Source of the DNA: Azonexus sp.
GTDB lineage: Bacteria > Pseudomonadota > Gammaproteobacteria > Burkholderiales > Rhodocyclaceae
Assembly: GCA_030691385.1 (NCBI GenBank)
Contig: JAUYEI010000018.1
Location: forward strand, 1-64,000
DNA length: 64,000 bases
Direction of reading: 5' to 3'
In this document: positions 1,004 to 28,899 of the stretch, piece by piece
How positions within the stretch are numbered: position 1 is the first letter of the stretch
Layout: every line of letters begins with the position of its first letter
Position numbers and translations under genes: made by a program
Notes under the pieces: model-generated
Seen by the model: only the letters and a program-made list of their open reading frames with translations
Databases searched by the model: none
Told to the model about the DNA's origin: nothing

Positions 1004-1018
1004 GATTTTTTCCTTAGG

Positions 1019-1179
1019 TGCTCTGCTTCGTGATTAGCGAGCCACGATGAAAGCGCCGGATTTGTGTTCATGGCTAGGCGCGAACCGGAGCAATAGCCGC
1101 ATCTATTGCGAGGATGAGCAACGACGCCAGGGACGCAAAGACAAGTTTTCATGGCTCGTCTAATTGCGAAGCAGAGCAC
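1019..1179. repeat. Nested-palindrome element, copy A (pdxA-ksgA gap)
   Basis: The outer arms 1019-1055 and 1143-1179 are inverted repeats (both start GTGCTCTGCTTCG when read inward). The inner hairpin is GCAATAG...CTATTGC, preceded by GGCGCGAACC. The same core occurs at 23135-23297 and 28742-28899. The right arm contains the last codons and stop of pdxA. I see no coding capacity. Confidence 0.8.
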
Positions 1180-2155
1180 TTGCCATGCGGGCGGCTTCGG
1201 CAACGGCTTCGAACAGGCTGCCGGGGTCAGCCTTGCCGGTGCCGGCCAGTTCGAGCGCCGTGCCATGATCGACCGAGGTACGGATGATGGGCAGGCCGAG
1301 CGTGACGTTGATGCCCTTGCCGAAGGTGGCGTATTTGAGCGCGGTCAGCCCCTGGTCGTGGTACATGGCGAGCACGGCGTCGCCCTGGGCGAGGATGGGC
1401 GGCGTAAACATCGTGTCGGCCGGGTAGGGGCCGGACAGCGCCATGCCTTCGCCGCGCAGCTTGTCGAGAACGGGCGTGATGACTTCGATTTCTTCCATGC
1501 CGAGATAACCGCCCTCGCCGGCGTGCGGATTAAGGCCGGCGACGAGGATGCGCGGCTGCGCGATGCCGTACTTGCCGCGCAGGTCGGCGTGCAGGATGCG
1601 CAGGGTCTTTTCCAGCACCTCGGCAGTGATCGCTGCCGAGACATCCTTGAGCGGCAGATGCGTGGTGGCCAGCGCGACACGCAGCGGGCCGAGCTCGGTA
1701 TCGCCGGCCAGCATCATGACGACGAGCGGCGTGTTGGTCTTGTCGGCCAGGTATTCGGTGTGGCCGGTGAAGTGCACGCCGGCGTCGTTGATGACGCCTT
1801 TATGCACCGGCGCCGTCGCCATCGCGGCAAACTCGCCGGACTGGCAACCGGCCAGCGCACGGTCAAGCAGGGCCAGCACGTAGGGGCCGTTGGCGGCATC
1901 GAGCCGGCCGGCCTGCGCGGGTACGGCGAGCGGAATGTGGAGAACCGGCAGACTGCCACGGTCAACCGGAATTTTCGGCGAAAAATCGACAACGCGAACC
2001 GGCAGCCCGAGCGCGGCCGCCCGCGCTTCAAGCAGATTGCGGTCGCCAAGAATGACCGGCTGGGCATCGCCTTCATAGCCGGCCAGGCGCAGGCAGAGTT
2101 CCGGACCGATGCCGGCCGGCTCGCCGCTGGTCACGGCTATGACCGGGTGTATCAC
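1160..2155 (-). CDS. pdxA: 4-hydroxythreonine-4-phosphate dehydrogenase
   Basis: PdxA oxidises 4-phosphohydroxy-L-threonine in the DXP-dependent pathway to pyridoxal phosphate. The start chosen is GTG at 2155, which gives 331 residues beginning [19 protein letters not shown]; the reading frame is open further upstream but that part overlaps surA and does not look like PdxA. Metal and substrate motifs are visible: [15 protein letters not shown], the MYHDQG histidine segment and SVDHGTA near the C-terminus. The GTG overlaps the surA stop by four bases (GTGA), so the two are probably translationally coupled. Codons around 1956-1989 come from a dispersed repeat and encode [10 protein letters not shown]. 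Confidence 0.95.
1956..1989 (-). repeat. Short dispersed repeat, copy 2 (inside pdxA)
   Basis: On the minus strand this reads ...CCGGTTGACCGTGG, identical in its core to copy 1, but it lies in frame inside pdxA and is translated as part of it. Confidence 0.65.
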
Positions 2156-3471
2156 TTTTCTTCGAGTCGGTTTTCGACGTAGGCGCGGTCGCGTAGCTGG
2201 CGCAGCCAGTCCTGGTAGGCTTCGTCGAGCTTGCGCTCGCGCAGCGCCTGGCGGGCCACGCCGCGCTGGCGTTCGACCGAGACGTCGCGCTCGCGGCGTT
2301 CCTGGACCTGGATCAGGTGCATGCCGAACGGCGACTGGACAACCGGGCTGAGTTCTCTGATTTTCAAGGAGTCCATCGCCCGCTCGAATTCCGGCACGGT
2401 GTCGCCCGGATTGAGCCAACCGAGGTCGCCACCCTTGGCGGCCGAGCCGTCCTGCGAATTGAGTCGGGCCTGCTCGGCGAAATCGACGCCATTGACGATG
2501 CGTTCACGAATGCTTTCCAGCTTGCGCCGCGCTTCGCCTTCGGAGATCACTTCGTTCATGCGGATCAGGATGTGGCGGGCGTGGGTCTGTTGGACCGAGG
2601 CCGGTGCACTGCCGCCGCGCTTGTTGAGCAGCTTGACGACGTGAAAACCGGCCGACGAGCGCAGCAACTCGCTGACCTGGCCGGCCTGCAGACGGCCGGC
2701 CACTTCGGCGTACAGGGACGGCAGTCGATTCAGCGCACGCCAGCCGAGATCACCGCCTTGCAGGGCATCCGGCGCATCGGAGAAAGCGGCGGTCAATTGG
2801 GCGAAGTTTTCGCCGGCCTGCGCCCGCTTGAGCGCCTGCTCGCCGCGCAGACGCAGCTTTTGCAGTTGCTCGGGGCTGGCCGATTCCGGCGCACGCAACA
2901 GGATGTGCGCTAGCTGATACTCCTCGCCACCGCCACCACTGGCCGCCTGACTGGCCAGATAATTGTCGATTTCGCCATCGGAAATGATCAACTTGCTGTC
3001 GACCTCGCGTTCGCGCAGACGAACGGTCACCATCTCGTTGCGAATTTCCTCACGGAACTGGGCGTACTGCACGCCGTCCTTTTCCAGCGCGGCGCGGAAC
3101 TGCGGCAGCGTCATATTGTTGCCGGCGGCAATGCGGCCGATGGCTTGTTCGAGCTGGTTGTCGTCAACCCGCATGCCCGAATCGCGGGCATATTGCAGTT
3201 GCACGCGCTCCATGATCAGGCGTTCGAGCATCTGTCGCTCCAGCACATCCTGTGGCGGCAGCGGCGTTCCCTGCTTCTGCAACTGCTTTAGCGCAGCGGC
3301 GAGACGGGTCCGCAGTTCGACATGGGTGACGACCTCGTCACCGACAACGGCGACGATGCGGTCGGCTTCGATGGGTTCCGCCGGCGCAGCGGACACGGAC
3401 TTCGCCAACAGGCCACCGAGGCAGCAGATGAGGACAAGCAGGGTGCGAATAAATGAGGTCATGGTCTTCAT
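2152..3471 (-). CDS. surA: Periplasmic chaperone / peptidyl-prolyl isomerase SurA
   Basis: SurA escorts unfolded outer-membrane proteins, LptD among them, across the periplasm. The 439-residue product starts with a signal peptide (hydrophobic [13 protein letters not shown], cleavage after VSAA). An N-terminal chaperone domain follows, with [12 protein letters not shown] typical of SurA. Two parvulin (PpiC) domains lie at about 185-280 (start YQLAHILLR) and 295-395 (start THARHILIR). The gene overlaps lptD upstream by four bases (ATGA) and pdxA downstream by four bases, so it sits in a tight operon with its main client. Its length is usual for the family. Confidence 0.96.
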
Positions 3472-6005
3472 TGGGAGGTGAGCAGGCTGCTGCTATTGGG
3501 CAGCTCGTTGATCTTGCCATAGCCCGGAATGCTGCGCCGGAGCAGGCCTATCGGATTGGTGCCGATACTACCGAAATCATTGAGTTCCAGCTGGAAAAAC
3601 AGCGTGTCGTTGGGGGTGCCGGAAATCGCCGCCAGGCGCTGGCCGACGACGCGAACGGCCCAGCAACCGGCGTTGTACTCGATGCCGGCAATCGACTCAA
3701 GGGTCTTCTTGTCACGCAAGGAGTAGTTGTAGCGCCCGACGGCATACCACTTCGAGGAGATCGGCCACTGGCCGGCAACATCGATCTGGTCGACTGTCGA
3801 ATTGCCGGTCAGCGGATTGCGCCTATAGCGATAACTGCCCGACAGCACCTTGCCGAGCTCCGGCTGGAAACGAACGCCGGCCGAGAAGCGTTCGCTGACG
3901 TTGTCCAGATAGTTGTACTCCCAGGCCACATCCGTATAGGTTTTTGGCGCAACCAGACCGTTGACCGCAGCCACCAGATTGGAGAAGTCGGAAGAACGAA
4001 CGGTTTCGCCGGTAATGGCGACGCGCTGTCCCTTGAAGTATTGACGCTGGCCTATCATGGCCTTGAAGCGCTCGACACCGGTTGCGCCGTCGAGCAGGCG
4101 CGTCGTCACGGCGGCGGTCAGCTGGTTGGCGTCGTTGATCCGGTCGTAGCCGCTGTAGCGGTTCTCGGAAAAGATCTGGGCGAAGTTGAAGTCGGAGAGC
4201 GCTGTATCGAAGAGTGGAATCTGGCTCTGGTTGCTGTACGGAATATTCACGTAGTAGAGGCGCGGCTCGAGCGTCTGGATATAGCCATTGCCGAACCAGT
4301 CGCCCTCGCGCTCGAAAATCATTGTCGAATCGAGCGTGAAGGTCGGCAGAACCCGGTTGATGCTGCTCTCCTGGCCGGCGAGCTGATTGCTCAGGCCGTA
4401 GTGGCTCATGTGCAGGCCGACCTTGGGCGTGATCTGGAAGGCCGGATGAACAAAGGGCAGCGAGACCTGCGGATAGAAAACGAGACGGTCACCCTGGACC
4501 CTGGTGCTATCGACATGGGTAAAACGCGAGAACTGGCCGATCATGCTGAGATCGGTGTGCAGCACATTCGGCCGGTAGCCCGTGATGTTGAGCTGCGGCT
4601 CGAGAAAATAGGGGCGGCTGACGGGCACCGTCGGGTCAAGTTGCAGGGTCTGGTAACGCAAGACCTGCATGCTGCTCTGCAGCCAGGGTGATGGCGCATA
4701 GCTCAGCGACACCTGCTTGGGCAATTGCGTCGCGGAAGTCTGCAACAGGCGGGACGACAGATCCTGCCAGTAGTAGTCGTCGGAAACACCGTTCCAGTTG
4801 ATGGCGGCCGACACCCCTTGCCCGAGGTTGTGCTGATGCTGGATCCGGTAGCCATAGCGTTGCCGATTCTGCGACTCGTCGTTCGGCAGATATTCAACGC
4901 GGGTCACACCCTGGAAATTGTGGTCGAGATAGCGTGCCTCGACTCCGAGTTGGAAGCCACGCTTGCTCATGTAGCGCGGGAACAGCGTCAGGTCGTAGTT
5001 CGGCGCGATGTTCCAGTAATAGGGCAACGTGAAGTCGAGGCCACTGCGCGTCGAGGTCGAGAAATGCGGGTGCAGCAGGCCGGAGCGGCGTTGGCCGTTG
5101 AGCGAAAAGGAAGCGACCGGTGAGTAGAAGAGCGGCACGCCACCAAACCACAGCGAAGCATGCTTGGCCGTCCCCTCGTTGTTGTCGTAATCGAGATGCG
5201 TTTCCGCGGTTTGCAGATACCAGTCTTCCTGCCCCGGCTTGCAGGTCGAAAAGGAATTCGAGAAAAAGGTGTACTGGTTTTCGCCCTCGAAATCGACGCG
5301 TTCCGCCCGCCCGTTCGCTTCCGTCGGGCGTTGCGGCGGCGATTGCGTCGGCAGGCCGTAGCTGTTTGCAATATTGAGCATCATCGGCGCGCCAGAGGTA
5401 TTGGCATTGGCTCCGGCGACCGTCACGACAGTCGGCGTCGATCGGTAAAAGCGGCTCGGTTTTTCCCTGAGAATACGGTAGCGCACGTCCTCGGCCGAGC
5501 CGATCTGTTCATCGAGCTTCATCTTCAAATGCGGCGTATTGATTTCGGTGCCGTCCTGCAGCACACGCACCGAGCCAAAGGCTTCGATCTCGTCGTCAAG
5601 CATGCGATAAGTCAGACGGTCGGCCAGAATCAGCGACCCCCTCTTGCGCAGCTCGACATTGCCCTCGGCCACCGTGAGCTCTTCAGCCTGGCCTTCGATC
5701 TGTTCGGCGCTGAGAAACAGCGGGTAATTATCATCTTTCTTCAGCACGGCCGGAAATTCGATACCGACCACGACCGGTGTCGACGCCTGCCGCTTCCTGC
5801 CCTGGATATTGAAACGACGTTCCTGGCGGAGGCGAAGCGGCACATCGGCGGCCGCCAACAGCATGACTTCGGGCAATTCCCCCGGCGCCTCGGCACCCGA
5901 AAGCTGCAAGCGCAGTGCGTCGTCGGCGGCATGGCTCGCCGGCGCCCCGACAAACAGGCAGCAAACGAAGACAGCAAGCGGACGGCGGGAAAAACCGGGC
6001 ATCAA
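3468..6005 (-). CDS. lptD: LPS-assembly outer-membrane protein LptD
   Basis: LptD, with the lipoprotein LptE, is the beta-barrel that inserts lipopolysaccharide into the outer leaflet. The 845-residue protein has a signal peptide ending in ASHA, an OstA/LptA-like periplasmic domain (about 85-215, [10 protein letters not shown] and [16 protein letters not shown]) and a large C-terminal barrel that begins near [14 protein letters not shown]. Only two cysteines are seen in the mature part (FSTCK and NAGCWAV), so the double disulfide of the E. coli protein is probably reduced to one pair. It is first in the lptD-surA-pdxA-ksgA operon and divergent from amgK, with 88 bases between the starts. Confidence 0.95.
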
Positions 6006-6093
6006 GGCAATCAGTAGATGTTTGGGACCGGAACGGCCGATGCCCGAGTGTTAAAATCGCGCCATTTTACAACGAAGCGAACCCTAGCCGCTT

Positions 6094-7116
6094 ATGGAAC
6101 CCATGCCGCGCGATCAACTTGTTTCCGACTGGGTTGCCAGTCGTTTTCCTGACCACTCCGTCCGGATCACCCCGGCTTCGGCCGATGCCAGTTTCCGCCG
6201 TTATTTTCGCCTGACCTGGCCGGACGGCCAGACGCGCATCCTGATGGATGCTCCGCCGGAAAAGGAGGACTGCAAGCCCTTCATCCACGTCGCCGGCCTG
6301 CTCGCCAAGGCCGACCTGGCCGCGCCGCGCATCCTCGACAAGGATCTCGACCACGGTTTCCTGGTCCTCACCGACCTCGGCCGCATCGGCTATCTCGACG
6401 CGCTCAACGCTGACCTGTCGCTGGCCGACATGCTGATCCGCCCGGTCCTCGACATGCTGGTCAAGTGGCAATGTTCCTCGACCGCCGCCACCCTGCCGCC
6501 CTACGACGCCACCCTGCTGCGCCGCGAACTCGATCTTTTCCCGGAATGGTTCATCGGCCGTCACCTCGGCGTCGAACTCGACGACGGCGAAAAGTCCATG
6601 CTCGACCGGACCTTCAAGTTCCTCATCAACAACGCGCTCAATCAGCCCAAGGTCTTCGTCCATCGCGATTTCATGCCGCGCAACCTCATGGTCATCGAAA
6701 GCGCCGAGCGCCTGACGCCGGGCATCATCGACTTCCAGGACGCCGTGTACGGCCCGATCACCTACGACGTCGTCTCGCTCTTCCGCGACGCCTTCATCTC
6801 CTGGGAAGAAGAACAGGAAATCGACTGGGTCGTCCGCTACTGGGAAAAAGCCCGCGCCGCCGGCCTGCCGGTGCGCGAAGACTTCGGCGCCTTCTGGCGC
6901 GACTACGAACTGATGGGCCTGCAACGCCACCTCAAGGTGCTCGGCATCTTCTGTCGCCTCAAGTACCGCGACGGCAAGGAAAAATACAGCGAAGACCTGC
7001 CCCGCTTCATGAACTACGCCCGCAAGACGGCCCACCGCTACGTCCAGCTCAAGCCGCTGCTCAACCTGCTCGACAAGCTGGAAGGCAATACCGAGCAGAT
7101 CGGCTATCGCAGGTAG
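6094..7116 (+). CDS. amgK: Anomeric sugar kinase AmgK (N-acetylmuramate/GlcNAc 1-kinase)
   Basis: This is an aminoglycoside-phosphotransferase-fold kinase. HRDFMPRN carries the catalytic Asp and metal-binding Asn, and IIDFQDAVYGP carries the Mg-binding Asp. Members that sit beside murU phosphorylate recovered N-acetylmuramic acid at C1, starting a recycling route that bypasses de novo UDP-MurNAc synthesis and gives intrinsic fosfomycin tolerance in pseudomonads. murU follows 84 bases later on the same strand. The first ATG (6094) is used; a second ATG lies three codons on. The substrate is inferred from the neighbour, not from residues. Confidence 0.88.
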   Translation: MEPMPRDQLVSDWVASRFPDHSVRITPASADASFRRYFRLTWPDGQTRILMDAPPEKEDCKPFIHVAGLLAKADLAAPRILDKDLDHGFLVLTDLGRIGYLDALNADLSLADMLIRPVLDMLVKWQCSSTAATLPPYDATLLRRELDLFPEWFIGRHLGVELDDGEKSMLDRTFKFLINNALNQPKVFVHRDFMPRNLMVIESAERLTPGIIDFQDAVYGPITYDVVSLFRDAFISWEEEQEIDWVVRYWEKARAAGLPVREDFGAFWRDYELMGLQRHLKVLGIFCRLKYRDGKEKYSEDLPRFMNYARKTAHRYVQLKPLLNLLDKLEGNTEQIGYRR

Positions 7117-7200
7117 TTGCGAGTTGTTAGTCATTAGCTGCTAGTTAAAGGCTAACTTCTAACCGCTGACTGCTGCCGACTAATAACTAATGACTAGACA
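7117..7200. repeat. TAGT-rich intergenic dyad (amgK-murU gap)
   Basis: The spacer is full of TTAGT/ACTAA words with dyad symmetry (TTAGTCATTAG near the left end, CTAATGACTAG near the right). Similar spacers lie behind purH (16163-16260) and hemF (20101-20142). It is unlike the surrounding GC-rich DNA and has no coding capacity. Confidence 0.55.
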
Positions 7201-7884
7201 ATGAAAGCCTTCATCCTCGCCGCCGGCCGTGGCGAACGCATGCGGCCACTGACCGACCACACGCCCAAGCCGCTGCTCGTGGCCGGCGGCAAGCCGCTCA
7301 TCGTCTGGCATCTGGAAAGACTGGCGGCGGCGGGGTTCAGGGACATCGTCATCAACCACGCCCACCTCGGTTCGCTCATCGAGCAGACGCTGGGCGACGG
7401 CTCGCAGTGGGGCTTGAAGATTCAATATTCGCCCGAACCGCCGGGCGCGCTGGAAACGGCTGGCGGCATCGCCACCGCCCTGGCGCTGCTCGGCGACGAA
7501 CCCTTCCTGGTGGTCAATGGCGACGTTTATTGCGATTTCGATTTTGGCCGTTTTTTCCGGTTGACCGTGGAAGGCTGGAAACCAGCCGCCCATCTGGTCA
7601 TGGTAGCCAATCCGGCGCATCACACCGGCGGCGACTTCAGCCTGGAAGGCGAGCACGTCATTTACGCCAGCGGTGAGCAAACCGTCACCTACGCCGGCAT
7701 CGGTGTTTTCTCGCCAGCCTTCTTCGCCGAGATACCGCCGGGGACTGTCATGAAACTGCGCCCCCTGCTCGACACCGCCATCGCCGCCGGGACGCTGACA
7801 GGGGAACGCTTTGCCGGCCACTGGGTCGATGTAGGTACGCCACAACGTCTGGCCGAACTGGATCAGGAACTCAAAAACGCATGA
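7201..7884 (+). CDS. murU: N-acetylmuramate alpha-1-phosphate uridylyltransferase
   Basis: MurU turns MurNAc-1-phosphate, the AmgK product, into UDP-MurNAc, closing the peptidoglycan recycling loop. The 227-residue nucleotidyltransferase shows the start MKAFILAAGRGERMRPLT, the sugar-nucleotide loop KPLLVAGGKPLI, and the metal-binding VVNGDVY. The stop overlaps the pepP start by four bases. Residues FGRFFRLTVEGWKP (about 117-130) are encoded by a copy of the ~33-base dispersed repeat, in a region where homologues have a variable loop, so the protein has absorbed the repeat. Confidence 0.92.
   Translation: MKAFILAAGRGERMRPLTDHTPKPLLVAGGKPLIVWHLERLAAAGFRDIVINHAHLGSLIEQTLGDGSQWGLKIQYSPEPPGALETAGGIATALALLGDEPFLVVNGDVYCDFDFGRFFRLTVEGWKPAAHLVMVANPAHHTGGDFSLEGEHVIYASGEQTVTYAGIGVFSPAFFAEIPPGTVMKLRPLLDTAIAAGTLTGERFAGHWVDVGTPQRLAELDQELKNA
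7540..7574 (+). repeat. Short dispersed repeat, copy 3 (inside murU)
   Basis: One of the best copies: ATTTTGGCC, then a T-run and CCGGTTGACCGTGG. It is in frame within murU and encodes FGRFFRLTVEG. Confidence 0.75.
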
Positions 7885-10317: not shown

Positions 10318-10327
10318 AAATGAAAAG

Positions 10328-10337
10328 TTGAGTTTCA
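10328..10337 (+). repeat. 10-bp direct repeat, left copy (TTGAGTTTCA)
   Basis: The same 10 bases recur at 12268-12277, where they are the first codons of the menA-like gene. The pair brackets the AlbA_2/ATPase gene exactly, as a target duplication or a recombination footprint would. Confidence 0.6.
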
Positions 10338-10339
10338 AG

Positions 10340-13155: not shown

Positions 13156-13224
13156 CTATTTTTTAAGCGCCGACTCAGGTAAAATTCCCGGCTTCCCGAG
13201 ATTTACCCGAGCCTTCGTACGCCC

Positions 13225-14241: not shown

Positions 14242-14471
14242 GCCAACATGATTTGGGGAGGTGCGTGATCAACGCACTGGAACAATATTTCCGCGACCTG
14301 GATGGGGAAAAACCGGGCGCAATCTATGACATGGTTTTGAAGAGCGTTGAAAAACCGATGCTCGAAGTGGTACTCGCCAAGGCCGGCACCAACCAGACGC
14401 TGGCGGCGGAGATGCTCGGCATCAACCGCAACACGCTGCGCAAGAAACTGACTGAGCATCAACTGCTGTAA
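14238..14471 (+). CDS. fis: Nucleoid-associated regulator Fis
   Basis: A 77-residue Fis, shorter than the 98 residues of E. coli and typical of betaproteobacteria. The C-terminal helix-turn-helix is intact ([20 protein letters not shown]). It acts as a dimeric DNA-bending protein controlling rRNA, recombination and growth-phase genes. It is translationally coupled to dusB and followed by an 86-base AT-richer spacer before purH. Confidence 0.95.
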
Positions 14472-14557
14472 GGCGTTATCGGGGATCAGGGATTGGTAAT
14501 TGGGAATCCCTCCCCACCGCCCACTTCCTAATAACCCATCACCAATCACGCCTCACC

Positions 14558-16162: not shown

Positions 16163-16260
16163 AAGGCAGTCGGGAGTCGTTAGTAGCGAGTCGCTAGCAA
16201 AACCGCTCATCACAGACCGCTCCCGACTAATAACTTATAACTAGGAACTAGGATCTCCCC
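16163..16260. repeat. TAGT-rich intergenic dyad (purH-purD gap)
   Basis: AGTCGGGAGTCGTTAGTAGC on the left is mirrored by GCTCCCGACTAATAAC on the right. It resembles the spacers behind amgK and hemF in base composition and words. No coding capacity. Confidence 0.5.
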
Positions 16261-17538: not shown

Positions 17539-17550
17539 GGACTCAGGGCG

Positions 17551-19185: not shown

Positions 19186-19194
19186 AAATATAAA

Positions 19195-20100
19195 ATGACC
19201 ATAGACACAGTCCAGGTGAAGACCTGTTTCACGGGCCTGCAAGCCCGCATCGTCGCCGAACTTGAAGCCTTCGACGGCCAGCCTTTCCGCACCGATTCCT
19301 GGGAGCGCCCGGAAGGCGGCGGCGGCATTTCGCGTTTGATCGAGGAAGGCAATTTTTTTGAACGCGGCGGCGTCAACTTCTCGCACGTCACCGGCCAGTC
19401 GCTGCCGGCCTCGGCCACCGCCGTCCGCCCGCAACTGGCCGGCCGCGCCTGGGAGGCGATGGGCGTTTCGCTGGTCCTCCATCCACGCAATCCGTATTGC
19501 CCGACGGCGCACATGAATGTGCGCTGCTTCGTCGCCCGCAAGGCAGGCGAAGAGGACGTCTGGTGGTTTGGCGGCGGCATGGACATGACGCCTTACTACG
19601 GTCAAACGGAGGATGTGGTCCATTTTCACCAGACCTGCAAGGATGCGCTGGCGCCGTTCGGCGACGAGGTCTATCCGAAATACAAGAAATGGTGCGACGA
19701 GTATTTTTTCCTGAAACACCGCAACGAACCGCGCGGCGTCGGCGGTGTGTTTTTCGACGACCTCAACGAAGGCGGTTTCGAGCGCTGCTTTGAACTAACC
19801 CGGTCGGTCGGCAATGCCTTCACCGAGGCCTACCTGCCGATGCTGGCCAAGCGTCGCGACACGCCTTACGGCGAGCGCGAACGCGATTTCCAGGCCTACC
19901 GCCGCGGACGTTACGTCGAGTTCAATCTGGTCTGGGACCGCGGCACACTGTTCGGCCTGCAATCGGGCGGGCGCACCGAGTCAATCCTGATGTCGATGCC
20001 GCCGATCGTCAAATGGCGCTACGACTGGCAGCCGGCAGCCGGCACGCCGGAAGCCGAACTCTACGAAGTATTTCTCAAGCCGCAGGACTGGGCGGTTTAG
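19195..20100 (+). CDS. hemF: Oxygen-dependent coproporphyrinogen-III oxidase
   Basis: HemF oxidatively decarboxylates coproporphyrinogen III to protoporphyrinogen IX in aerobic haem synthesis. The 301-residue protein has the expected length and motifs: [33 protein letters not shown], the conserved [16 protein letters not shown] and [12 protein letters not shown]. It starts just after the diguanylate cyclase. The hemY-hemX-hemD-hemC group converges on it from the other strand. Confidence 0.97.
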
Positions 20101-20142
20101 TTGTTAGTCGGGCGTAGTGAGTTGTTAGCTAAAAACCAGCAA
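20101..20142. repeat. TAGT-rich spacer between hemF and hemY
   Basis: Words GTTAGTCGGG and GAGTTGTTAGC resemble the dyad spacers at 7117 and 16163. It joins two convergent genes, and no standard terminator hairpin is seen. Confidence 0.4.
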
Positions 20143-21327
20143 CTACCGACTATCAAGCAGCGCGCTGGCCCGGTAGTGCTTGTTGGCTTCTTCGGTCCGT
20201 TCGAGCTGGTCGAAAAGCCGGGCCAGTTCGAGATGGGCCTGCAGCGACGGTTCAACCGACAGCGAAGCCTCCAGATAACTTTGTGCCTTGCCCCACAGGC
20301 GCAGGCGGATGCACATGCGGCCCAGCGCCTTGAGCAGGCGGGCATCGTCGGGGTGCTGGCGTAACCAGCCCTCGGCCTTGGCGATGCGGGCGGTCTGCTC
20401 GCTGTTGCTCAAGCGGCCGTAAATGGCCACCAGCTCGGGTTGCCATTCTTCATTCTTCGCGGCGTCAAGCACGGATTCGATCAGTTTCTGTACCTCGGCC
20501 TCGCCCCCCAGCGCAACCAGTGCCCGCGCCGCAGCGAGGACGACGCGACGACCGCGTTCCTCTACCGGCATCGAACGCAAATATGTAGTCAGTTTGCCCT
20601 GATCGGCTACCCGTTTGGCAATATTGCCAAGATGGGCCTGCGTGCGGACTTCGCTGACCACCTCAAGCGGCAGCGCATCGCGCTTGACTAGCTGGCGGGC
20701 CAGCTTGAGCACGCCATCCCAATCGCCGACGCCCTGACGGGCGCGCAACTCGAGACGTAACGCGGCGATGTGGCGGCCCTGCTTGCCTTGCAGTTTTTCG
20801 AGAGCGGCCAGTGCGACATCAAAACGACGCGCCTCGTTGGCCATTTCGGCATCAAGCATGAGCGTTGCCGCCTCGGTGCGCGGGTCGTCGGTCTTGGCAT
20901 GCTCCAGCCAGTATTGCTGCTTTTCCGGCTCGCGCATGCGCTGGGCGGCGCGGGCAGCGATCAGCGCCGAGAGACCGGGAGCCGTACCGGCGCCGTGGGC
21001 TTCGCTGGCCTTTTTGAGCGCCTGGCCGAAACGACCTTCGAAGAGAAGACGCACAGCGTCCTGAAAAACCAGCCCGGCACTTTCGCGCTGGCGCTGGGCG
21101 CGGTATTCACGCACCCGCTTCGGCAAGCCGAAGGTCACCGCCAGAGCCCGCATTCCTGCATAGAGCACGAAGAAAAGGGCGAGCAGCGCGATGATAAAGA
21201 GATTGAGCGAAATCTCGGCCCGCCACGGCGGGAAAACCACCAGCACGTAGCCGTCGTTGTAGCGGGCGCCTAGCGCGACGGCGACAGCCAGCCCGCACAG
21301 GGCGACAATCCAGAACAGCCCTCTCAC
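20143..21327 (-). CDS. hemY: HemY: TPR protein of the haem-synthesis operon
   Basis: A 394-residue inner-membrane protein with two N-terminal hydrophobic segments (VALCGLAVAVALGA and FIIALLALFFVLYAGM) and a cytoplasmic tail of tetratricopeptide-like repeats ending in SYLEASLSVEPSLQAHLELARLF-type helices. This is the proteobacterial HemY, unrelated to protoporphyrinogen oxidase; it is implicated in haem-pathway protein interactions. It starts with GTG overlapping the hemX stop by four bases. Confidence 0.92.
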   Translation of the reverse strand: MRGLFWIVALCGLAVAVALGARYNDGYVLVVFPPWRAEISLNLFIIALLALFFVLYAGMRALAVTFGLPKRVREYRAQRQRESAGLVFQDAVRLLFEGRFGQALKKASEAHGAGTAPGLSALIAARAAQRMREPEKQQYWLEHAKTDDPRTEAATLMLDAEMANEARRFDVALAALEKLQGKQGRHIAALRLELRARQGVGDWDGVLKLARQLVKRDALPLEVVSEVRTQAHLGNIAKRVADQGKLTTYLRSMPVEERGRRVVLAAARALVALGGEAEVQKLIESVLDAAKNEEWQPELVAIYGRLSNSEQTARIAKAEGWLRQHPDDARLLKALGRMCIRLRLWGKAQSYLEASLSVEPSLQAHLELARLFDQLERTEEANKHYRASALLDSR

Positions 21328-22364
21328 CGCTTTTCCTTGCCCGGACGCAGGTTGCGCAAGGCCGCCTGAGTTTCATTGAGAGTCGGCAGCTCGACGTTGA
21401 TTTCGCTTGCCGTCATCTGACGCAACGTGGTCTGGGCCGTCTGCACAGCCTTGTCGTTGGCCTCGAAATGGCGGGTCAGCATGTCCTGGGCGACTTTGAG
21501 TTCGTTGCGGTAAGTCCATTGATCGCGTGCGAACAAGGCGAGCCTGGCGTTGAGCAGGCGCAGCTTGAGATTTTCACGGAGCAGGTAGCCCTGGCCGGGC
21601 GCCAGCAGCGCCGCGTCCTCGCGGTCGAAGCGCTGGATGCGAATCAGCCCCTTCATTTCCTGCCAGATGGCGCCGCCGGTGCGCTGCCACCACGACTGTG
21701 CGGCCGCCGGTTTTTCATTTTCGGCCTTTTTTTCCGGTCGACCGTAGGAAACGAGCGGCAGCTTGTCGACGCCGACCAGAACCTGTTCCAGACGCAGGCT
21801 GATGCCCGGCATGTCGACAAAAGGCAGGGCATTGAGGCGGGCCAGATCCTTGGCCAGCGCCTTGCGCAAGGTCAGGTGGGCCGGACGGTCGAGGCGGGCC
21901 AGTTGGGCGTCGGCAGTTTGCAGTGCGAGCACGGCAACCGGCAGATTACCGGCCAGTTGCAGTTGCTGTCCGGCCAGGATGATGGCCTGTTCGACTTCGA
22001 GCAGGGTGATCTCTTCGCGACTACGGGCGATGTCCTGATAGAGCGCCTGCAGGGTCGTGGACTGGGACTGGAATTCGGCAATCTTGCCATCGACGGCGCC
22101 GAGGCGGGCCTGCAGCGCTTCGACCTGTTCGCGCGACTGCTTCTGGGCGCCGCGATCTTCCTTGTGGCCGGTGTCGAACTCGGCCAGTTTCTGGCTGACT
22201 TGCTGCTGGACATCAAGCAGCTTCTGGCGGGTTTCGAACCACTGCCAGGCAGCCAGCGCCAGCGCAGCAATCGCCACGAACAGCCACGGGCTGGTCCGCT
22301 TGGCGCGCGGCGCCGGGAGATAGGGCATGGTCGACGGGGAGGGATTTTCGTTTTCGGGCATCAT
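21324..22364 (-). CDS. hemX: HemX-family membrane protein
   Basis: A 346-residue membrane-anchored protein of the HemX family, called 'uroporphyrin-III C-methyltransferase-like' although it has no methyltransferase motifs. One transmembrane helix (SPWLFVAIAALALAAW) is followed by a coiled coil (about 45-110, rich in Q, E, K) and a C-terminal domain. The start ATG at 22364 overlaps the hemD stop by four bases; an upstream TTG in frame is less likely. The dispersed-repeat copy at 21711-21750 is read here in the antisense direction, in a low-complexity stretch (GRPEKKAENEKP) where homologues vary. Confidence 0.9.
   Translation of the reverse strand: MMPENENPSPSTMPYLPAPRAKRTSPWLFVAIAALALAAWQWFETRQKLLDVQQQVSQKLAEFDTGHKEDRGAQKQSREQVEALQARLGAVDGKIAEFQSQSTTLQALYQDIARSREEITLLEVEQAIILAGQQLQLAGNLPVAVLALQTADAQLARLDRPAHLTLRKALAKDLARLNALPFVDMPGISLRLEQVLVGVDKLPLVSYGRPEKKAENEKPAAAQSWWQRTGGAIWQEMKGLIRIQRFDREDAALLAPGQGYLLRENLKLRLLNARLALFARDQWTYRNELKVAQDMLTRHFEANDKAVQTAQTTLRQMTASEINVELPTLNETQAALRNLRPGKEKR
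21711..21750 (+). repeat. Short dispersed repeat, copy 4 (inside hemX, antisense)
   Basis: Reads ATTTTCGGCC, a T-run, CCGGTCGACCGTAGG on the plus strand, with two changes from the core. hemX reads it in the opposite direction, so both orientations are tolerated in coding DNA. Confidence 0.6.
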
Positions 22365-23149
22365 GCCGGCCAATTATAAGCAACTAAGCCGGCGAGGATG
22401 CCGGCGTCGGCTGCTTCGGTGAGGAGAATGTTGCTTAAACCCAAAGCCCGGGCGTTTTCGGCGATGCGGGCGTGGGGGACGAAAAGCGGCGTCTTTTGCA
22501 GGAAGGCACGGCCTTCGGCGTCGAGCCGATCGACCAGATAGCGCAGGCCTTCGCTGCTCGACACGGTCAGCGCATCGAGGCGGCCGGCCCGCCATGCGGC
22601 CATCAGCGGCGCCATGCCGGCGGATGGCCCGGAACGGCGGTAGCAGGTGATGCAATCGACCGTCGCGCCGCGTTCGCGCAAGGTTTCGGCGAGCAGTTCG
22701 CGACCGCCATCGCCGCGGAAGATGGCGACACGTTTGCCCGTGACGCGCTCGGCAGCGAGCTCAGGCAATTCGAGCAGGGCTTCGGAATCGAAACGCTCGG
22801 TTGGAGCAATGCAGCCATGAATGCCGCGCTCGGCCAGCACTTTGACTGTGCCCTGACCGACTGCGGCGGGAATCAGGGATTCAGGCCAGGCTCGCTGCGC
22901 CAGCAAAACCGGCAGCGCGTGATCGGCGGCGTTCGGGCTGATGAACACGGCCAAGGCATATTCGCCCAGCCGGGCAGCCGCTTCGGCCAGCGGTCGCGAA
23001 TCGGCGGCCGGCGATATTTCAAGCAGCGGGAAAATCAGCGGCGTGCCGCCAGCGGCAACGATCGCCTCGGCCAGCGGCGCAGCCTGCGCCTGCGGCCGGG
23101 TGACGACGATGGTTCGGCCGGCGAGCGGGCCGCCAGTGCGGTGTTGCAT
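22361..23149 (-). CDS. hemD: Uroporphyrinogen-III synthase
   Basis: HemD closes and inverts hydroxymethylbilane to uroporphyrinogen III. The 262-residue protein starts MQHRTGGPLAGRTIVVTRPQAQAAPLA; it has the weak but typical family pattern (FISPNAADHAL, VGQGTVKVLAERG, RGDGGRELLAETLRERGA, TVSSSEGLRYLVD). An in-frame upstream extension runs into a palindromic repeat, and the arm of that repeat covers the first codons. It lies between hemC and hemX. Confidence 0.9.
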   Translation of the reverse strand: MQHRTGGPLAGRTIVVTRPQAQAAPLAEAIVAAGGTPLIFPLLEISPAADSRPLAEAAARLGEYALAVFISPNAADHALPVLLAQRAWPESLIPAAVGQGTVKVLAERGIHGCIAPTERFDSEALLELPELAAERVTGKRVAIFRGDGGRELLAETLRERGATVDCITCYRRSGPSAGMAPLMAAWRAGRLDALTVSSSEGLRYLVDRLDAEGRAFLQKTPLFVPHARIAENARALGLSNILLTEAADAGILAGLVAYNWPA

Positions 23150-23297
23150 GCTATGAGGCACCTGATAAAACCGATGCATTTGGCCTCGTGGCAAGGCGCA
23201 AACCGCAGCGATACCCGGAGGTATCGCGAGGATTTGCAACGCGGCCACGGGGGCAAAGGCGCGGTTTTATGGTCCGAATAGCGTGCAACACCGCACT
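23135..23297. repeat. Nested-palindrome element, copy B (hemC-hemD gap)
   Basis: The arms 23135-23173 and 23262-23297 are inverted repeats of about 36 bases (AGTGCGGTGTTGCA at both outer ends). The inner hairpin is GCGATACC...GGTATCGC, preceded by GGCGCAAACC. Relative to the other copies several stem bases differ on both sides so that pairing is kept. The element fills almost all of the hemC-hemD spacer, and its left arm includes the hemD start. Confidence 0.8.
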
Positions 23298-23301
23298 CAG
23301 C

Positions 23302-24237
23302 TCATTTGCAGTGCGCGAGTTTCTCGAGGATCGCGTCGGCGCCCTTGGCCCGCAGTTCGGCTGCCAGTTGCAGGCCGAGCGCTTCGTCGTCAGCCGGATT
23401 ACCGCGCAGTTCGGCGCTGACCACTTCCTTGCCGTCAGCCGTCGCAACAAAGCCGCGCAGCCAGAGCTGGCCGTTTTCGATGATCGCGTAGCCGCCCAGC
23501 GGCACCTGGCAGCTACCGCCGAGGGCACGCGAGAAGGCGCGTTCGGCCTTGACGCAGTGCGCCGTTTCCGGATCGTTGAGCGGCGCGACAATGTCGGCCA
23601 TATCGGCAGCCCCATCGATCAGCTCTATGCCCAGCGCGCCCTGACCGGGCGCCGGCAGCGACTGTTCCGCGGTCAACACGGATTTGATGCGACTTTCCAT
23701 ACCGAGGCGGATCAGGCCGGCCGCCGCCAGAATGATCGCGTCGTATTCACCGGCATCGAGTTTCTTCAAACGGGTGTCGAGGTTGCCGCGCAGGCTCTTG
23801 ATGACGAGCTGCGGATACTTGGCGCGCAGGATGGATTCACGACGCAGGCTCGAGGTGCCGACAATGGCGCCGGGCGGCAGATCGTCCAGCTCGTTGTACC
23901 TGTTCGAGACGAAGGCATCGCGCGGATTTTCGCGGGCCGAGATGGCGGCCAGCACGAAGCCTTCCGGCATGACCATCGGCACGTCCTTCATCGAATGCAC
24001 GGCGAGGTGGGCCTTGCCTTCCTGCATGGCAACTTCGAGCTCCTTGATGAACAGGCCCTTGCCGCCGATTTCGGCGAGCGGCCGGTCAAGGATCTGATCG
24101 CCCTTGGTGGTCATGCCGAGAATGACAACTTCAACCCCGGGATTTAAACTCGATAAGCGATCTCTGACATGCACCGCCTGCCACATGGCCAGACGGGATT
24201 CGCGGGAGGCAATGACAATCTTCGAAGGACGGGACAT
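23302..24237 (-). CDS. hemC: Hydroxymethylbilane synthase (porphobilinogen deaminase)
   Basis: HemC polymerises four porphobilinogens into hydroxymethylbilane on a dipyrromethane cofactor. The start ATG at 24237 gives 311 residues, beginning [17 protein letters not shown], which matches the family; the open frame continues upstream without similarity. It has the conserved [24 protein letters not shown] and the cofactor cysteine in [12 protein letters not shown]. The start codon overlaps the divergent thioredoxin-like gene by two bases, so the two promoters must lie inside each other's coding DNA. Confidence 0.96.
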
Positions 24238-24718
24238 GGGCAGGCAATGGGCAGGGCTTTTGGGAGGGCTGATTCTAGCATGGCTGGCCGCACCATCCCT
24301 GGGCGCGACCGACCTGCCGGCCGCCATCGACCTGCGCGCCGAGTCGGCGCAGGCGGCCAGGGCCGGCGGCCCGCTGATCGTCATCTACAGCCGCCAGGAC
24401 TGCAAATACTGCGAAGCCGTCAAACGCGACTACCTCAAGCCGCTCGCCGCCAACCCGCGCTTCCGCGACCGCGTGGTCATCCGGCAGATCAATCAGGACG
24501 GCGAAACGCAGGCGCTCACCGACTTCAGGGGTGGCACCACGACGCACGCTCGCGTCGCCAGCGCCGAGAAGGTCAAGCTGGTGCCGGTCGTCGCCTTCTA
24601 TGGCCCGGATGGCCGCCAGTTGGCCAGCCCTATCGTTGGCGCCCGGCTGCCTGACTTTTACCAGAGCTATCTCGAAGATGCCGTCGAGCTATCGGCCCGC
24701 GCCCTGAAAAAGCCATGA
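24236..24718 (+). CDS. Exported thioredoxin-fold protein
   Basis: A 160-residue product with a signal peptide ([18 protein letters not shown]) and a thioredoxin-like domain with the redox motif CKYC ([16 protein letters not shown]). The residues [14 protein letters not shown] correspond to the cis-proline region of such folds. It resembles SoxW-like or thioredoxin_2 proteins; the partner is unknown. The start overlaps the divergent hemC start, and its stop overlaps the next gene by four bases. Confidence 0.8.
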
Positions 24719-25320
24719 GCGAAGCCATCAAGCCAGCGGAGCAGCGCCCGGAACACCCGGATTTCTGGTGCAAGCGCTTCGGCGAGGGCGTCACGCCGTG
24801 GGATGCCGGCAAGGTGCCGGATGCCTTTGCCGACTTCATCGCCCGCCAGCCGGCGCCGCTCAAGACGCTGATCCCCGGCTGCGGCAGCGCCTGGGAAGCG
24901 GTCCATCTGGCCGAACTCGGCTGGCCGGCCACCGCGCTGGACTTCTCGCCAGCCGCCATCGAGACGGCGCGCAAAATTCTCGGCAATGCCCCGGTCGATT
25001 TGCTCTGCGCCGATTTTTTCACCTTCTTCCCGGCCCGGCCGGTCGAACTGATCTACGAACGCGCCTTCCTCTGCGCCCTGCCGCGCAAGCTGTGGGCCGA
25101 CTGGGGCCGGCGCGTTGCCGAACTACTGCAGCCGGGCGGCCGGCTGGCCGGCTTTTTCTTCCTGTGCGACCAGCCGAAAGGCCCGCCTTTCGGCATCCTG
25201 CCCGGGCAACTGGCCGAATTACTCGCTTCAAATTTTGAACTGATCGAGGATGCCGCCGTCGACGATTCAATCCCGGTCTTCGCCGGTCGCGAACGCTGGC
25301 AGGTCTGGCAACGGCGTTAA
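24715..25320 (+). CDS. TPMT-family SAM-dependent methyltransferase
   Basis: A 201-residue class I methyltransferase of the thiopurine S-methyltransferase family. FWCKRFGEGVTPWDAGKVP, typical of the family's start, is followed by the SAM-binding loop IPGCGSAWEAVHLAELG and the acidic ALDFSPAAIETA. The bacterial members are known to act on small thiols, selenium or tellurium compounds or halides; the substrate here is unknown. It is coupled to the upstream thioredoxin-like gene by a four-base overlap. Confidence 0.85.
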   Translation: MSEAIKPAEQRPEHPDFWCKRFGEGVTPWDAGKVPDAFADFIARQPAPLKTLIPGCGSAWEAVHLAELGWPATALDFSPAAIETARKILGNAPVDLLCADFFTFFPARPVELIYERAFLCALPRKLWADWGRRVAELLQPGGRLAGFFFLCDQPKGPPFGILPGQLAELLASNFELIEDAAVDDSIPVFAGRERWQVWQRR

Positions 25321-25437
25321 TTCGCCGAAAAACAGGCCGCCACGCGGCCCATCAACTTACAATTTGTTTCAGGTCGCCGCGTCATCGCGACGACGATTCA
25401 CCGCGTTATTCAGCCACACCCCAACGAGGAACACACC

Positions 25438-25926
25438 ATGAAACGTATCCTGATGGCGATGGCCATGACCATCGCCGCCGTTACACTAAGCGCCCCCGCC
25501 GCCGCCCAGGTTTCGATCAATATCGGCCAGCCCGGCTTCTACGGCCGGCTCGACATCGGCGGCTTCCCGCCCCCGCCCCTGCTCTATCCGGAACCGATGA
25601 TGATCCAGCGGGTGCCGGTCGGCCGCCCGCCGCTCTATCTGCACGTTCCGCCCGGCCACGCCAAGCACTGGGGCAAGCATTGCCATCGCTATCGCGCCTG
25701 CGGCGAACGTGTCTATTTCGTGCAGGACAACTGGTACCAGCAGGAATACGCCCCGCGCTACCGCGAACGGCACGGCCACCGCGACGACCGTCATGACGGC
25801 TACCGCGACGACCATCGCCGTGACCACCGGCACGACTACCGCGACGATCATCGCGGCCGGGATCGCCACGACGACCGCGGTCGCGGACGCGGTGACGACC
25901 GTGGCCATGGCCGCGGCCGCGACTAG
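25438..25926 (+). CDS. Exported Arg/Asp/His-rich protein, function unknown
   Basis: A 162-residue protein with a clear signal peptide (MKRILMAMAMTIAAVTLSAPAAA). A proline-rich middle (PPPPLLYPEP, VGRPPLYLHVPPGHAKHWGKHC) leads to CGERVYFVQDNWYQQEYAPRYRE, which looks conserved. The last ~55 residues are almost only Arg, Asp, His and Gly in a DDRHDGYRDD pattern. Such tails can bind metals or polyanions, but nothing here shows what they bind. A ribosome-binding site AACGAGGAACACACC precedes the ATG. Confidence 0.75.
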   Translation: MKRILMAMAMTIAAVTLSAPAAAQVSINIGQPGFYGRLDIGGFPPPPLLYPEPMMIQRVPVGRPPLYLHVPPGHAKHWGKHCHRYRACGERVYFVQDNWYQQEYAPRYRERHGHRDDRHDGYRDDHRRDHRHDYRDDHRGRDRHDDRGRGRGDDRGHGRGRD

Positions 25927-26018
25927 CCGCCCCCGACTGCCCGCCCACCGCTTGCCTGGCAGGTTGTGGGCAGCGGTTTGACGTATCATCGGCAGTCTCC
26001 CCGACTGCCTGTCAAACC

Positions 26019-28613
26019 ATGAAAACCGATACCCCCCAGACCGTCCATCTCAAGGACTACACCGCCCCCGCCTACCTGATCGACACGGTCGATCTCGACT
26101 TCAATATCGAAACCGGCGGCACCACCGTCAGCGCGACGCTGGCCATGCGCCGCAACCCCGCCGGCCCGGCCCGGCCGCTCGTACTCGACGGCGAAGAGCT
26201 GCAAACGCTCAGTGTCACGGTGAACCGGAAAAATTGGCCAAAATCGGAAACGCCAAGCTCGCTGACGCTCAGCGATCTGCCCGACGCTTTCACGCTGGAA
26301 ACCGTCGTCCGCATCGATCCCGACCAGAACACCCGCCTTTCCGGCCTGTACCGTTCGACGGACGGCTATTTCACCCAGTGCGAAGCGCAGGGTTTCCGCC
26401 GCATCACCTGGTTTCTCGACCGGCCGGACGTCATGTCCATCTACGCCGTCACCGTGCACGCCGACAAGGCGACTTTCCCGGTCCTGCTCGCCAATGGCAA
26501 CCCGGTCGCCGCCGGCGATGAGCCCGGCGGCCGTCACTGGGCCAAATGGGCCGATCCGTTCAAGAAGCCGGCCTACCTGTTCGCCGTCGTCGCCGGCAAG
26601 CTCGATGTCCTCAAAGACAGCTTCCAGACCGCCTCCGGCCGCAGCGTGCAGCTCGCCATCTACGTCGAACCGGGCAAACTCGACCAATGCCCGCACGCCA
26701 TGGCTGCCCTGCAAAAATCCATGCAGTGGGACGAAGAACGCTTCGGCCTCGAATGCGACCTCGACCATTACATGATCGTCGCCGTCGGCGATTTCAACAT
26801 GGGGGCCATGGAGAACAAGGGCCTCAACATTTTCAACACGAAATACGTGCTGGCGCGCAGCGATGTCGCCACCGACGTCGATTTCGAGAACATCGATCGC
26901 GTCGTCGCCCACGAATATTTCCACAACTGGACCGGCAACCGCGTCACCTGCCGCGACTGGTTCCAGCTCTCGCTCAAGGAAGGCCTGACGGTTTTCCGCG
27001 ATCAGGAATTCGGCGCCGACCTGCACAACCGGCAAATCGCCCGCATCCGCGAAGTACGCGGCCTGCGCGCCGCCCAGTTCCCCGAAGATGCAGGCCCGAT
27101 GGCCCACCCGATCCGCCCGAGCAGCTTCGTCGAGATCAACAATTTCTACACCTCGACGGTCTATGAAAAGGGCGCCGAAGTCATCCGCATGATCCAGACC
27201 CTGATCGGCCGCGACGCTTTCCGCGCCGGCATGGACGAATACTTCCGCCGCCACGACGGCCAGGCCGTGACCTGCGAGGATTTCGTCGCCGCCATGGCTG
27301 CCGCCTCCGGTTTCGACTTCACGCAATTCATGCGCTGGTACAACCAGCCCGGCACGCCGCATGTCACGGTCGACGGCTTTTTTGATGCGGAATCGAAAAC
27401 TTACACGCTGACCTGCACGCAAACCAACCCGCGCGCCAGCGATGACGCGCCGACGCTGATCCCGATCCGCGTCGCCCTGTTCGCCGACAACGGCGACCTC
27501 CTGCCCGGCACCGAGCGCACCCTGCACCTGACCGCCACGACGCAATCCTTCGTCTTCAACGACATCGCCGCCGAACCCGTGCCCTCGCTGCTCCGCGACT
27601 TCTCGGCCCCGGTCATTCTCGATTTCGGCTACACGCCGGAACAACTGACCCTGCTGCTGGCTCACGAAAGCGACCCGTTCAACGCCTGGGAAGCCGGCCA
27701 GCGCCTGGCCTCGATGCTGATCCTCGACGCCACCGCCGCCATCGCGGCCGGCCAGTCTCCCGTCTGGCCAGACAGCTTCGTCAACGCCGCCCGCCGCCTG
27801 TTGCAAACGCAAGCCGGGCGCGGCGCCGCCTTCGTTGCCGAAGCCCTGACCCTGCCCGGCGAATCGACACTGGCCGAAGCCATGGCGGTCGTCGATCCCG
27901 ACGCCCTGCACGCCGCCCGCAACGCCCTGCGCCGACATCTGGCCGAACAGCTGGAAAGCGAATTCGTCAGCCTCTATGTCGCTCTCGCCCCGACCGGCGC
28001 CTACACGCCGAGCAGCGCCGAAGCAGGCCGCCGCGCGCTGCGCAACGTCTGCCTCGCCTACCTGCTTGAACTCGACAGCGAGGCAAGCCGCCAACTGGCG
28101 CTCGATCAGTTCACCGGCGCCGACAACATGACCGACCAGTTCGCCGCGCTGTCGGCGCTGGCCAACGTCAATGCCCAGACCTGCCCACAACGTGAAACGG
28201 CACTGGCCGATTTTTACGCCCGCTGGCAGCATGAGGCGCTGGTCGTCGACAAATGGCTGGCCGCGCAATCGACCAGCCGCCGCCCGGACACGCTGACCAC
28301 CGTCAAGGCACTGACCGCGCACCCGGCTTTCGACATCACCAATCCGAACAAGGTCTACGCGCTGCTGCGTGCCTTCGGCGCCAACCTCGTCCGCTTCCAC
28401 ACCGCCGAAGGCTATGCCTTCATCGCCGACTGCGTTCTCCAGTTGCACGACCGCAACCCGCAGGTCGCCTCGCGCCTGGCCCGCAGCTTCGACCGCTGGA
28501 AGAAGTTCGACGCCGACCGTCAGCGTCACGCCCGCACCGCCCTCGAACGCATCCGCGACCACGCCGGCCTGTCGCGCGACGTCCTGGAGGTGGTTTCCAA
28601 AGCACTCGGCTGA
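26019..28613 (+). CDS. pepN: Aminopeptidase N (M1)
   Basis: A cytoplasmic zinc aminopeptidase, 864 residues, close to the E. coli length. The exopeptidase signature GAMEN is at 262-266, the zinc site HEYFH at 298-302, with the third ligand in LKEGLTVFRDQEF about 19 residues further on. The alpha-helical C-terminal half is intact to the end. Residues near 70 (VTVNRKNWPKSE) are encoded by a copy of the ~33-base dispersed repeat in reverse orientation. A strong terminator follows. Confidence 0.96.
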   Translation: MKTDTPQTVHLKDYTAPAYLIDTVDLDFNIETGGTTVSATLAMRRNPAGPARPLVLDGEELQTLSVTVNRKNWPKSETPSSLTLSDLPDAFTLETVVRIDPDQNTRLSGLYRSTDGYFTQCEAQGFRRITWFLDRPDVMSIYAVTVHADKATFPVLLANGNPVAAGDEPGGRHWAKWADPFKKPAYLFAVVAGKLDVLKDSFQTASGRSVQLAIYVEPGKLDQCPHAMAALQKSMQWDEERFGLECDLDHYMIVAVGDFNMGAMENKGLNIFNTKYVLARSDVATDVDFENIDRVVAHEYFHNWTGNRVTCRDWFQLSLKEGLTVFRDQEFGADLHNRQIARIREVRGLRAAQFPEDAGPMAHPIRPSSFVEINNFYTSTVYEKGAEVIRMIQTLIGRDAFRAGMDEYFRRHDGQAVTCEDFVAAMAAASGFDFTQFMRWYNQPGTPHVTVDGFFDAESKTYTLTCTQTNPRASDDAPTLIPIRVALFADNGDLLPGTERTLHLTATTQSFVFNDIAAEPVPSLLRDFSAPVILDFGYTPEQLTLLLAHESDPFNAWEAGQRLASMLILDATAAIAAGQSPVWPDSFVNAARRLLQTQAGRGAAFVAEALTLPGESTLAEAMAVVDPDALHAARNALRRHLAEQLESEFVSLYVALAPTGAYTPSSAEAGRRALRNVCLAYLLELDSEASRQLALDQFTGADNMTDQFAALSALANVNAQTCPQRETALADFYARWQHEALVVDKWLAAQSTSRRPDTLTTVKALTAHPAFDITNPNKVYALLRAFGANLVRFHTAEGYAFIADCVLQLHDRNPQVASRLARSFDRWKKFDADRQRHARTALERIRDHAGLSRDVLEVVSKALG
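26215..26247 (-). repeat. Short dispersed repeat, copy 5 (inside pepN)
   Basis: The minus strand reads GATTTTGGCC, AATTTTTCCGG, TTCACCGTG: one change from the core. It is translated within pepN from the opposite strand. Confidence 0.6.
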
Positions 28614-28654
28614 TCAGCGGCCCGCCAAACCGCTGCGCCTGGTGCGGCGCTGAA

Positions 28655-28691
28655 ACACAAAAGCCCCGGTCGCATCGCGCCGGGGCTTTTG
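28655..28691 (+). terminator. Terminator behind pepN
   Basis: AAAAGCCCCGG and CCGGGGCTTTT form a long GC-rich stem with flanking A and T runs. It lies about 45 bases after the pepN stop and, being symmetrical, could also stop transcripts from the right. Confidence 0.85.
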
Positions 28692-28741
28692 CATCAGGCA
28701 ATCAGCAGCGAGGTTTTGCCGTTTCCGGCCGGCAGCTTTGC

Positions 28742-28899
28742 TGGTCTGCTTTGTAAATATCGGACCAGAGAAAGCGCCGGATTTGCGATTCTGGCAAGGC
28801 GCGAACCGCAGCAATAGCCGTAGCTATTGCGAGGATGAGCAACGCCGCCAGAAGTGCGAAGACAAGCTTTATCGGTTCGAACATTTGCGAAGCAGACCA
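28742..28899. repeat. Nested-palindrome element, copy C (pepN / TonB receptor gap)
   Basis: The arms 28742-28775 and 28866-28899 are inverted repeats (TGGTCTGCTT at both outer ends). The inner hairpin is GCAATAGC...GCTATTGC after GGCGCGAACC. The core is over 80% identical by eye to copy A. The right end abuts the stop codon of the TonB receptor gene exactly. Confidence 0.8.

Follow-up and report, generated by a model that had tools for sequence, protein, structure and literature searches.

The question raised by the 64-kb window, the whole stretch of Azonexus sp. DNA analyzed here, is why one short sequence without a transposase gene occurs in it three times as a long hairpin whose two sides have changed together. 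A sequence-only reading had taken such covariation as a sign that selection or copying acts on the folded form, had left the choice among a MITE-like repeat moved in trans, a processing or stability element, and an unnamed structured RNA, and had proposed a covariance-model search and a comparison of filled with empty sites as checks. Our analysis places the copies in a MITE superfamily of many members, in which a structured center is conserved and the transposon-like ends vary. Most likely they are short hairpin passengers, belonging to a family that is large in betaproteobacteria and moved by the transposases of other elements.

Each copy in the window is about 166 bp long and folds as one long imperfect hairpin at -81.1 to -106.2 kcal/mol (Table 1). 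The positions given earlier were correct to within a few bases, and the inner-stem sequences of the three copies were as quoted; the next stem, quoted as CTGGC/GCCAG, reads ATGGC/GCCAG with an A·G mismatch in copy 1, while the covariation as a whole stands. In an alignment of eight copies from the same genome, two-sided changes were found in 28 of 58 pairs (none of 500 shuffles was as high), with the structure derived from the same eight copies on which it was scored. Standard pairs made up 94.8% of the 464 cells in this alignment, and sliding the partner by 1 to 3 columns left pairing at only 33 to 46%. The count of three copies holds for the window and not for the genome, in which the full-length covariance model R1 found 11 distinct places (8 of its 19 rows repeated one of these on the reverse strand). 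Among relatives, the proposed search gave R1 matches, some weak or partial, in 18 of 41 genomes, the genome of the window counted.

No already named family emerged for the element from the Rfam scan of the window, in which only the edge of a group II intron at positions 1 to 53 of the minus strand (RF02001, 38.8 bits) scored above its gathering score, and a scan of copy 2 at a loose threshold gave nothing relevant (best E value, 2.8). A genus set was assembled from 75 copies in 15 genomes, with reverse-strand duplicates, the partial matches L038, L039, L040, and L086, and some weak R1 matches left out. These copies measure about 153 to 195 bp, contain no transposase gene, and end in terminal inverted repeats, as MITEs do. 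From 20 further loci, 16 elements were used, giving 91 elements in all.

Table 1. Element copies, structured cores, and gene boundaries within the arms, in window coordinates
Feature	Position	Strand	Description	Basis
Copy 1	1015..1182	+	Type A ends, GTGCTCTGCTTCG / CGAAGCAGAGCAC	Covariance model R1, 164.9 bits
Structured core of copy 1	1060..1137	+		Core model, 82.0 bits
Stop codon in right arm of copy 1	1160..1162	-	TAG, present pdxA stop	
Copy 2	23133..23299	+	Type B ends, GTGCGGTGTTGCATGC / GCGTGCAACACCGCAC	R1, 171.7 bits
Start codon in left arm of copy 2	23147..23149	-	ATG, likely present hemD start (MQHRTGGPLAGR)	
Structured core of copy 2	23178..23255	+		Core model, 93.0 bits
Copy 3	28738..28903	+	Type A ends	R1, 155 bits
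Structured core of copy 3	28781..28858	+		Core model, 87.6 bits

Copy 1 lies between pdxA and a ribosomal RNA adenine dimethylase gene and copy 2 between hemC and hemD, with all four genes on the minus strand; copy 3 lies between pepN (plus strand) and a TonB receptor gene (minus strand). Mobility of the elements is indicated by relatives, which have both filled and empty sites at the places of copies 1 and 2, which is the comparison that the earlier reading had called for. The place of copy 1 is filled in the relative G002 and empty in others. The distance between its anchors, measurable at 20 of 27 loci, was 178 in the two filled loci (the genome of the window and G002). Of the 18 other measured loci, 12 had a distance of 15; the remaining six had distances of 9, 21, 21, 22, 53, and 91, and the locus with 91 (L136) contains a fragment resembling part of an element. 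The place of copy 2 is filled in contig C70 of G005. In several relatives with an empty site there, the hemC stop and the hemD start overlap as ATGA. G005 has two hemC-hemD loci, on contigs C70 and C77, one filled and one empty, and its assembly has a listed contamination of 10. The best 5 of the 24 records obtained in a plasmid search with positions 20000 to 30000 of the window all lay at one stretch of about 1.1 kb in pepN.

Thirteen copies in genome G041, with identities of 0.90 to 0.99, stop at TA amid different flanks. Their boundaries are mostly YTA followed by GTGTAGTG and CACTACAC followed by TAR, with a few ends eroded; TA is present at both ends in most of the 13 and is eroded at copies 1 to 3. 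IS630 elements prefer CTAG-like target sites, and the G041 boundaries would fit a 2-bp TA duplication at such a site, although none of the empty sites examined had kept an intact TA. In 33 of the 75 genus copies, the element overlaps the end of a neighboring gene by exactly 4 bases, gene ends here being calls from codon usage, by a script for which the window was the training set, rather than annotation. This overlap is expected if the TAG of CTAG is, or became, the stop codon. CTAG itself occurs only 26 times in the window.

IS630 elements with TAGTGTAGTG ends were found in the genomes of four relatives (L172, L173, L376, and L377), and the two of these tested contain an IS630 transposase according to NCBIfam (E values, 5e-77 and 6e-81). 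Arms were compared with the L172 end against 2,000 shuffles of the full arm and 2,000 shuffles of only the bases after position 10. The type B arm of G041 was equaled by 0 and 7 shuffles, respectively, the G031 arm by 0 and 49, and the arm of L018, a copy from the genome of the window, by 1 and 143. The arm of copy 2 itself gave no clear match (76 and 196), and no match was obtained with the type A arm (651 and 1,151) or the Extensimonas arm (853 of 2,000 beyond the first ten bases). Type B ends, the end type of copy 2, are shared with autonomous IS630 elements, and for this one end type there is fairly good support for the proposed route of movement. On sequence grounds the proposal of a MITE moved in trans is well supported, with a partner known for the end type of copy 2 only.

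For the type A ends of copies 1 and 3, an IS630 element was not found among the fetched IS630 loci, which were part of the matches from 76 genomes of the genus and many of which had no findable ends. The two IS630 loci in the genome of the window have no TAGTGTAGTG-like ends. The IS630-type family PF13358 had no match in G031 (a complete genome), G041, G012, G018, G005, G003, G045, or G014, all of which contain elements, and G011 has IS630 and no R1 match. An IS630-type transposase gene is therefore not always found where copies are many: in the element-rich G031 and G041, the mobilizer may have been lost or may be another enzyme. Because of such element-rich genomes, we hold the explanation preferred below with slightly less confidence than before, as probable rather than strongly so. 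In G013:C43 (L384 and L034), about 0.6 kb separates a hairpin element from an IS630 gene whose ends are of another kind. G288 has 18 PF13358 matches, many of them equal in score, and the two copies fetched from it have TATTAACC ends.

MITEs are usually described as the remains of an insertion sequence without its transposase. A conserved middle with differing ends stands in contrast to that picture, and this is what the wider family presents. A center of about 50 nt (CWAGGCGCRAACCGCAGC, a short stem-loop, and GCGAGGATKWGCAACGMCGC) is kept while the ends resemble those of IS630 or IS5 elements. The center-only pattern was found in at least 120 stretches in named genomes. Among the 80 titles listed, many belong to Comamonadaceae and other Burkholderiales, some have no label finer than Proteobacteria, and bins of Gammaproteobacteria or Desulfovibrionaceae account for a few. 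For the core model R2, 15 copies were skipped and 51 diverse cores kept, of which 50 entered the model. Of the 250 genomes sampled from the order, 104 had R2 matches, covering 61 of 120 genera.

The 97 elements extracted from the named genomes (the named set) have several kinds of ends. In Tibeticola sediminis, the GGGCAACGCTGAATAAGT end had 94 and 110 matches with at most 2 mismatches and a reversed control had none, from which about 100 copies are estimated for this 2.7-Mb genome (L234). A Tibeticola sediminis locus (L336) combines TTAAGGCAACGCTGA ends with an IS5 transposase (E value, 1.5e-62), the likeness of the Tibeticola elements to IS5 ends being judged by comparison of the end sequences. 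The occurrence of IS630-like and IS5-like ends around one center indicates that the center goes with ends like those of two DDE transposon families. Length was surveyed in 74 elements with a clear inverted repeat, grouped by end patterns of our own definition, within a frame of 80 bases on each side of the 97 elements that is blind to elements much over 200 bp. It was 164 to 165 bp in 32 of 39 IS630-like elements, 167 bp in 11 of 14 IS5-like elements, 163 to 174 bp in 6 AGAGCSTGTT elements, and 116 to 195 bp in 15 elements with other ends, the usual length being 163 to 168 bp.

Two groups of elements deviate around this core. L076, L084, and L087 (G031) have different arms, yet their cores contain a common 13-bp insert, GGATGGCCGCCCC, at one and the same position, which may mark conversion between subfamilies. 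We considered this insert as proof of core exchange and set it aside as only suggestive, since it is a small palindrome and its neighbors differ. L217, L225, L237, L252, L259, L260, L270, and L288, from Methylobacillus, Pelomonas, and others, have the same core and a different right side, which looks longer and in many cases includes CCGAAGGGCA or a similar sequence.

The imperfect pairs of the arms distinguish the two strands. In the outer arms of the genus set, 374 G·T cells stand against 113 A·C and 263 G·A against 42 C·T, and G·T exceeds A·C in 65 of 75 copies and falls below it in 3. The named set gave 547 against 203 and 406 against 191, with G·T in excess in 80 of 95 copies and in deficit in 9; here 95 of the 97 elements passed the pairing filter, and the arms often extended into the flanks, which adds noise. 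The outer arms of subfamily consensuses contain 25 G·U and 3 A·C. The scoring treats both strands alike, and the common ancestry of the copies means that cells do not count independently. A single plus strand that folds, be it RNA or single-stranded DNA, would leave this pattern, which indicates that the fold of one strand was favored. In the core the bias is reversed (25 G·T to 175 A·C in the genus set and 9 to 269 in the named set), which stems from fixed internal-loop positions; over the whole length of the genus set, the counts are 423 and 326.

Two-sided changes are not enriched in transitions, and adjacent ones occur at 1.7 to 2.6 times the shuffled expectation, against 1.2 to 1.3 times for one-sided changes. 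Clustering of this kind fits template switching that would copy one arm onto the other. With the strand bias, it supports the claim of selection on the folded form or of its copying. Five orthologous pairs showed 3 compensatory and 35 one-sided changes, with 6 G·T and 10 A·C; 181 other pairs, which are not independent, showed 403 and 2,019, with 1,031 and 391. The differences between the two groups are not firm (P = 0.19 and 0.05, with five pairs) and weakly suggest that resident copies just decay.

The explanation that we consider probable is an IS630-type MITE with a shared core, of which the plus-strand hairpin is favored during spread and decays afterwards. A nonautonomous element, about 160 bp long, bounded by TA and with its arms serving as terminal inverted repeats, would be recognized at these arms by an IS630-family transposase encoded elsewhere and inserted at CTAG-like sites. 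The conserved center of about 50 nt would define the superfamily, with the same center joined in other genomes to IS5-family-like ends. The single plus strand folded as one hairpin would be favored while the element spreads, and copies would decay after insertion. Two-sided changes would arise in part by template switching from one arm to the other, by which a new end could become symmetrical. That the fold serves spreading, helped by such switching, is probable.

A mutational origin of the symmetry, in which template switching homogenizes long inverted repeats and the fold has no role, is rather unlikely. It would account for the clustered two-sided changes and their lack of transition enrichment, and template switching can maintain stems (PMC8794818). 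It does not predict the excess of G·T over A·C and of G·A over C·T on one strand, and homogenization would erase the fixed asymmetric internal loops of the core. A hairpin useful to the host in operon mRNAs, as a processing, stability, or RNase III site selected at each locus, is also unlikely. Copies 1 and 2 do lie between codirectional genes, and Correia elements in mRNA are described in part of PMC2649163 as RNase III substrates. However, the ratio of G·T to A·C in the genus set is similar in copies antisense and sense to the genes (193:61 and 77:18), which argues against read-through mRNA as the explanation, and selection on such mRNA was rejected. The better-folding plus strand is antisense in 39 of 53 codirectional copies of the genus set and in 24 of 41 of the named set, the latter without orientation bias. 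Presence also varies among relatives, and the ortholog pairs show little compensation. Neither the stability element of the earlier reading nor a structured segment of operon mRNA finds support in these counts. Strong covariation of a repeat need not point to an RNA function in the host; it can stem from mobility and from template switching.

We give little probability to a REPIN-like element for which a tyrosine (HUH) transposase would be the mover and a single-stranded hairpin the mobile form. REPINs, as a portion of PMC3116915 describes them, are hairpins with two-sided changes and a kept spacer length, and in these respects and in their kept length the present elements are alike; the strand-specific fold bias and the several element-rich genomes without an IS630 match would also suit such a mover. 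Against it, TA is found at both ends, and the ends match those of IS630 and IS5 elements, which are of the DDE type. REPINs are associated with RAYT transposases and conserve their ends, whereas here the center is conserved and the varying ends are shared with DDE transposons. A separate small RNA gene, driven by a promoter of its own and mobile by chance, is similarly improbable: the strand-specific fold and the wide occurrence of core matches in the order would agree with it, and the lack of an Rfam match and the free variation of the arms speak against it.

A broader and more tentative reading, which we consider possible but do not favor, makes the core the heritable unit, a passenger indifferent to the transposase, with ends acquired from IS630, IS5, and the Correia mobilizer. 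New ends would be mirrored by palindrome template switching, a folded strand of fixed length would be needed for spread, and Correia elements would be one branch. R2, built without Correia sequences, finds the Correia elements of Neisseria: of the five fetched contigs that carry such elements, four together gave five matches (E values, 5.8e-8 to 1.4e-5; best score, 32.9 bits). Four of these matches sit at Correia copies already recognized by their ends, two of the four having the same sequence, and the fifth (L360:220-298) is a candidate by its core; contig L361, with a Correia copy lacking its closing end, gave no match. Across 217 kb of other loci, with one true element (59.9 bits) set aside, background matches did not exceed 19.1 bits. 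Part of the Correia score stems from paired arms; a sequence-only profile was not significant against Correia (2.0 bits; 14 of 3,000 shuffles higher), and R1 found nothing in Correia elements. The Correia core is therefore likely a distant relative of this core rather than a member of the family.

Correia elements (CREE, NEMIS) are described in part of PMC2649163 as short and protein free, with inverted-repeat ends, a directional core, and a long form of 153 to 157 bp. The present elements are alike in being short, without protein, and with inverted-repeat ends and a directional core, the R2 matches lying between the CREE ends. In contrast, the Correia ends, TATAGTGGATTAA, are unlike those of the window family, and the Correia copies seen whole by their ends are 106 to 107 bp long, against about 164 bp here. 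Passages of PMC2649163 and PMC5039591 state that Correia elements are found only in Neisseria, and one of PMC2649163 gives their mobilizing mechanism as undetermined. No paper linking them to a wider core family was found in the open literature searched. Should Correia elements share the core, the question of their mobilizer becomes testable through DDE transposons with Correia ends (TATAGTGG).

By description, the elements can also be compared with RUP of Streptococcus pneumoniae, an IS630-type MITE with TA at its ends, as here, for which movement by an IS630 element is proposed in part of PMC2229807. Unlike RUP, they are paired over nearly their whole length of about 164 bp, and their core is common to elements with other ends. 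They are likened, again by description and not by sequence, to the small mobile repeats ERIC and YPAL of enterobacteria, of 127 and 168 bp (PMC2759123) and named RU-1 and RU-2, respectively, in PMC2229807.
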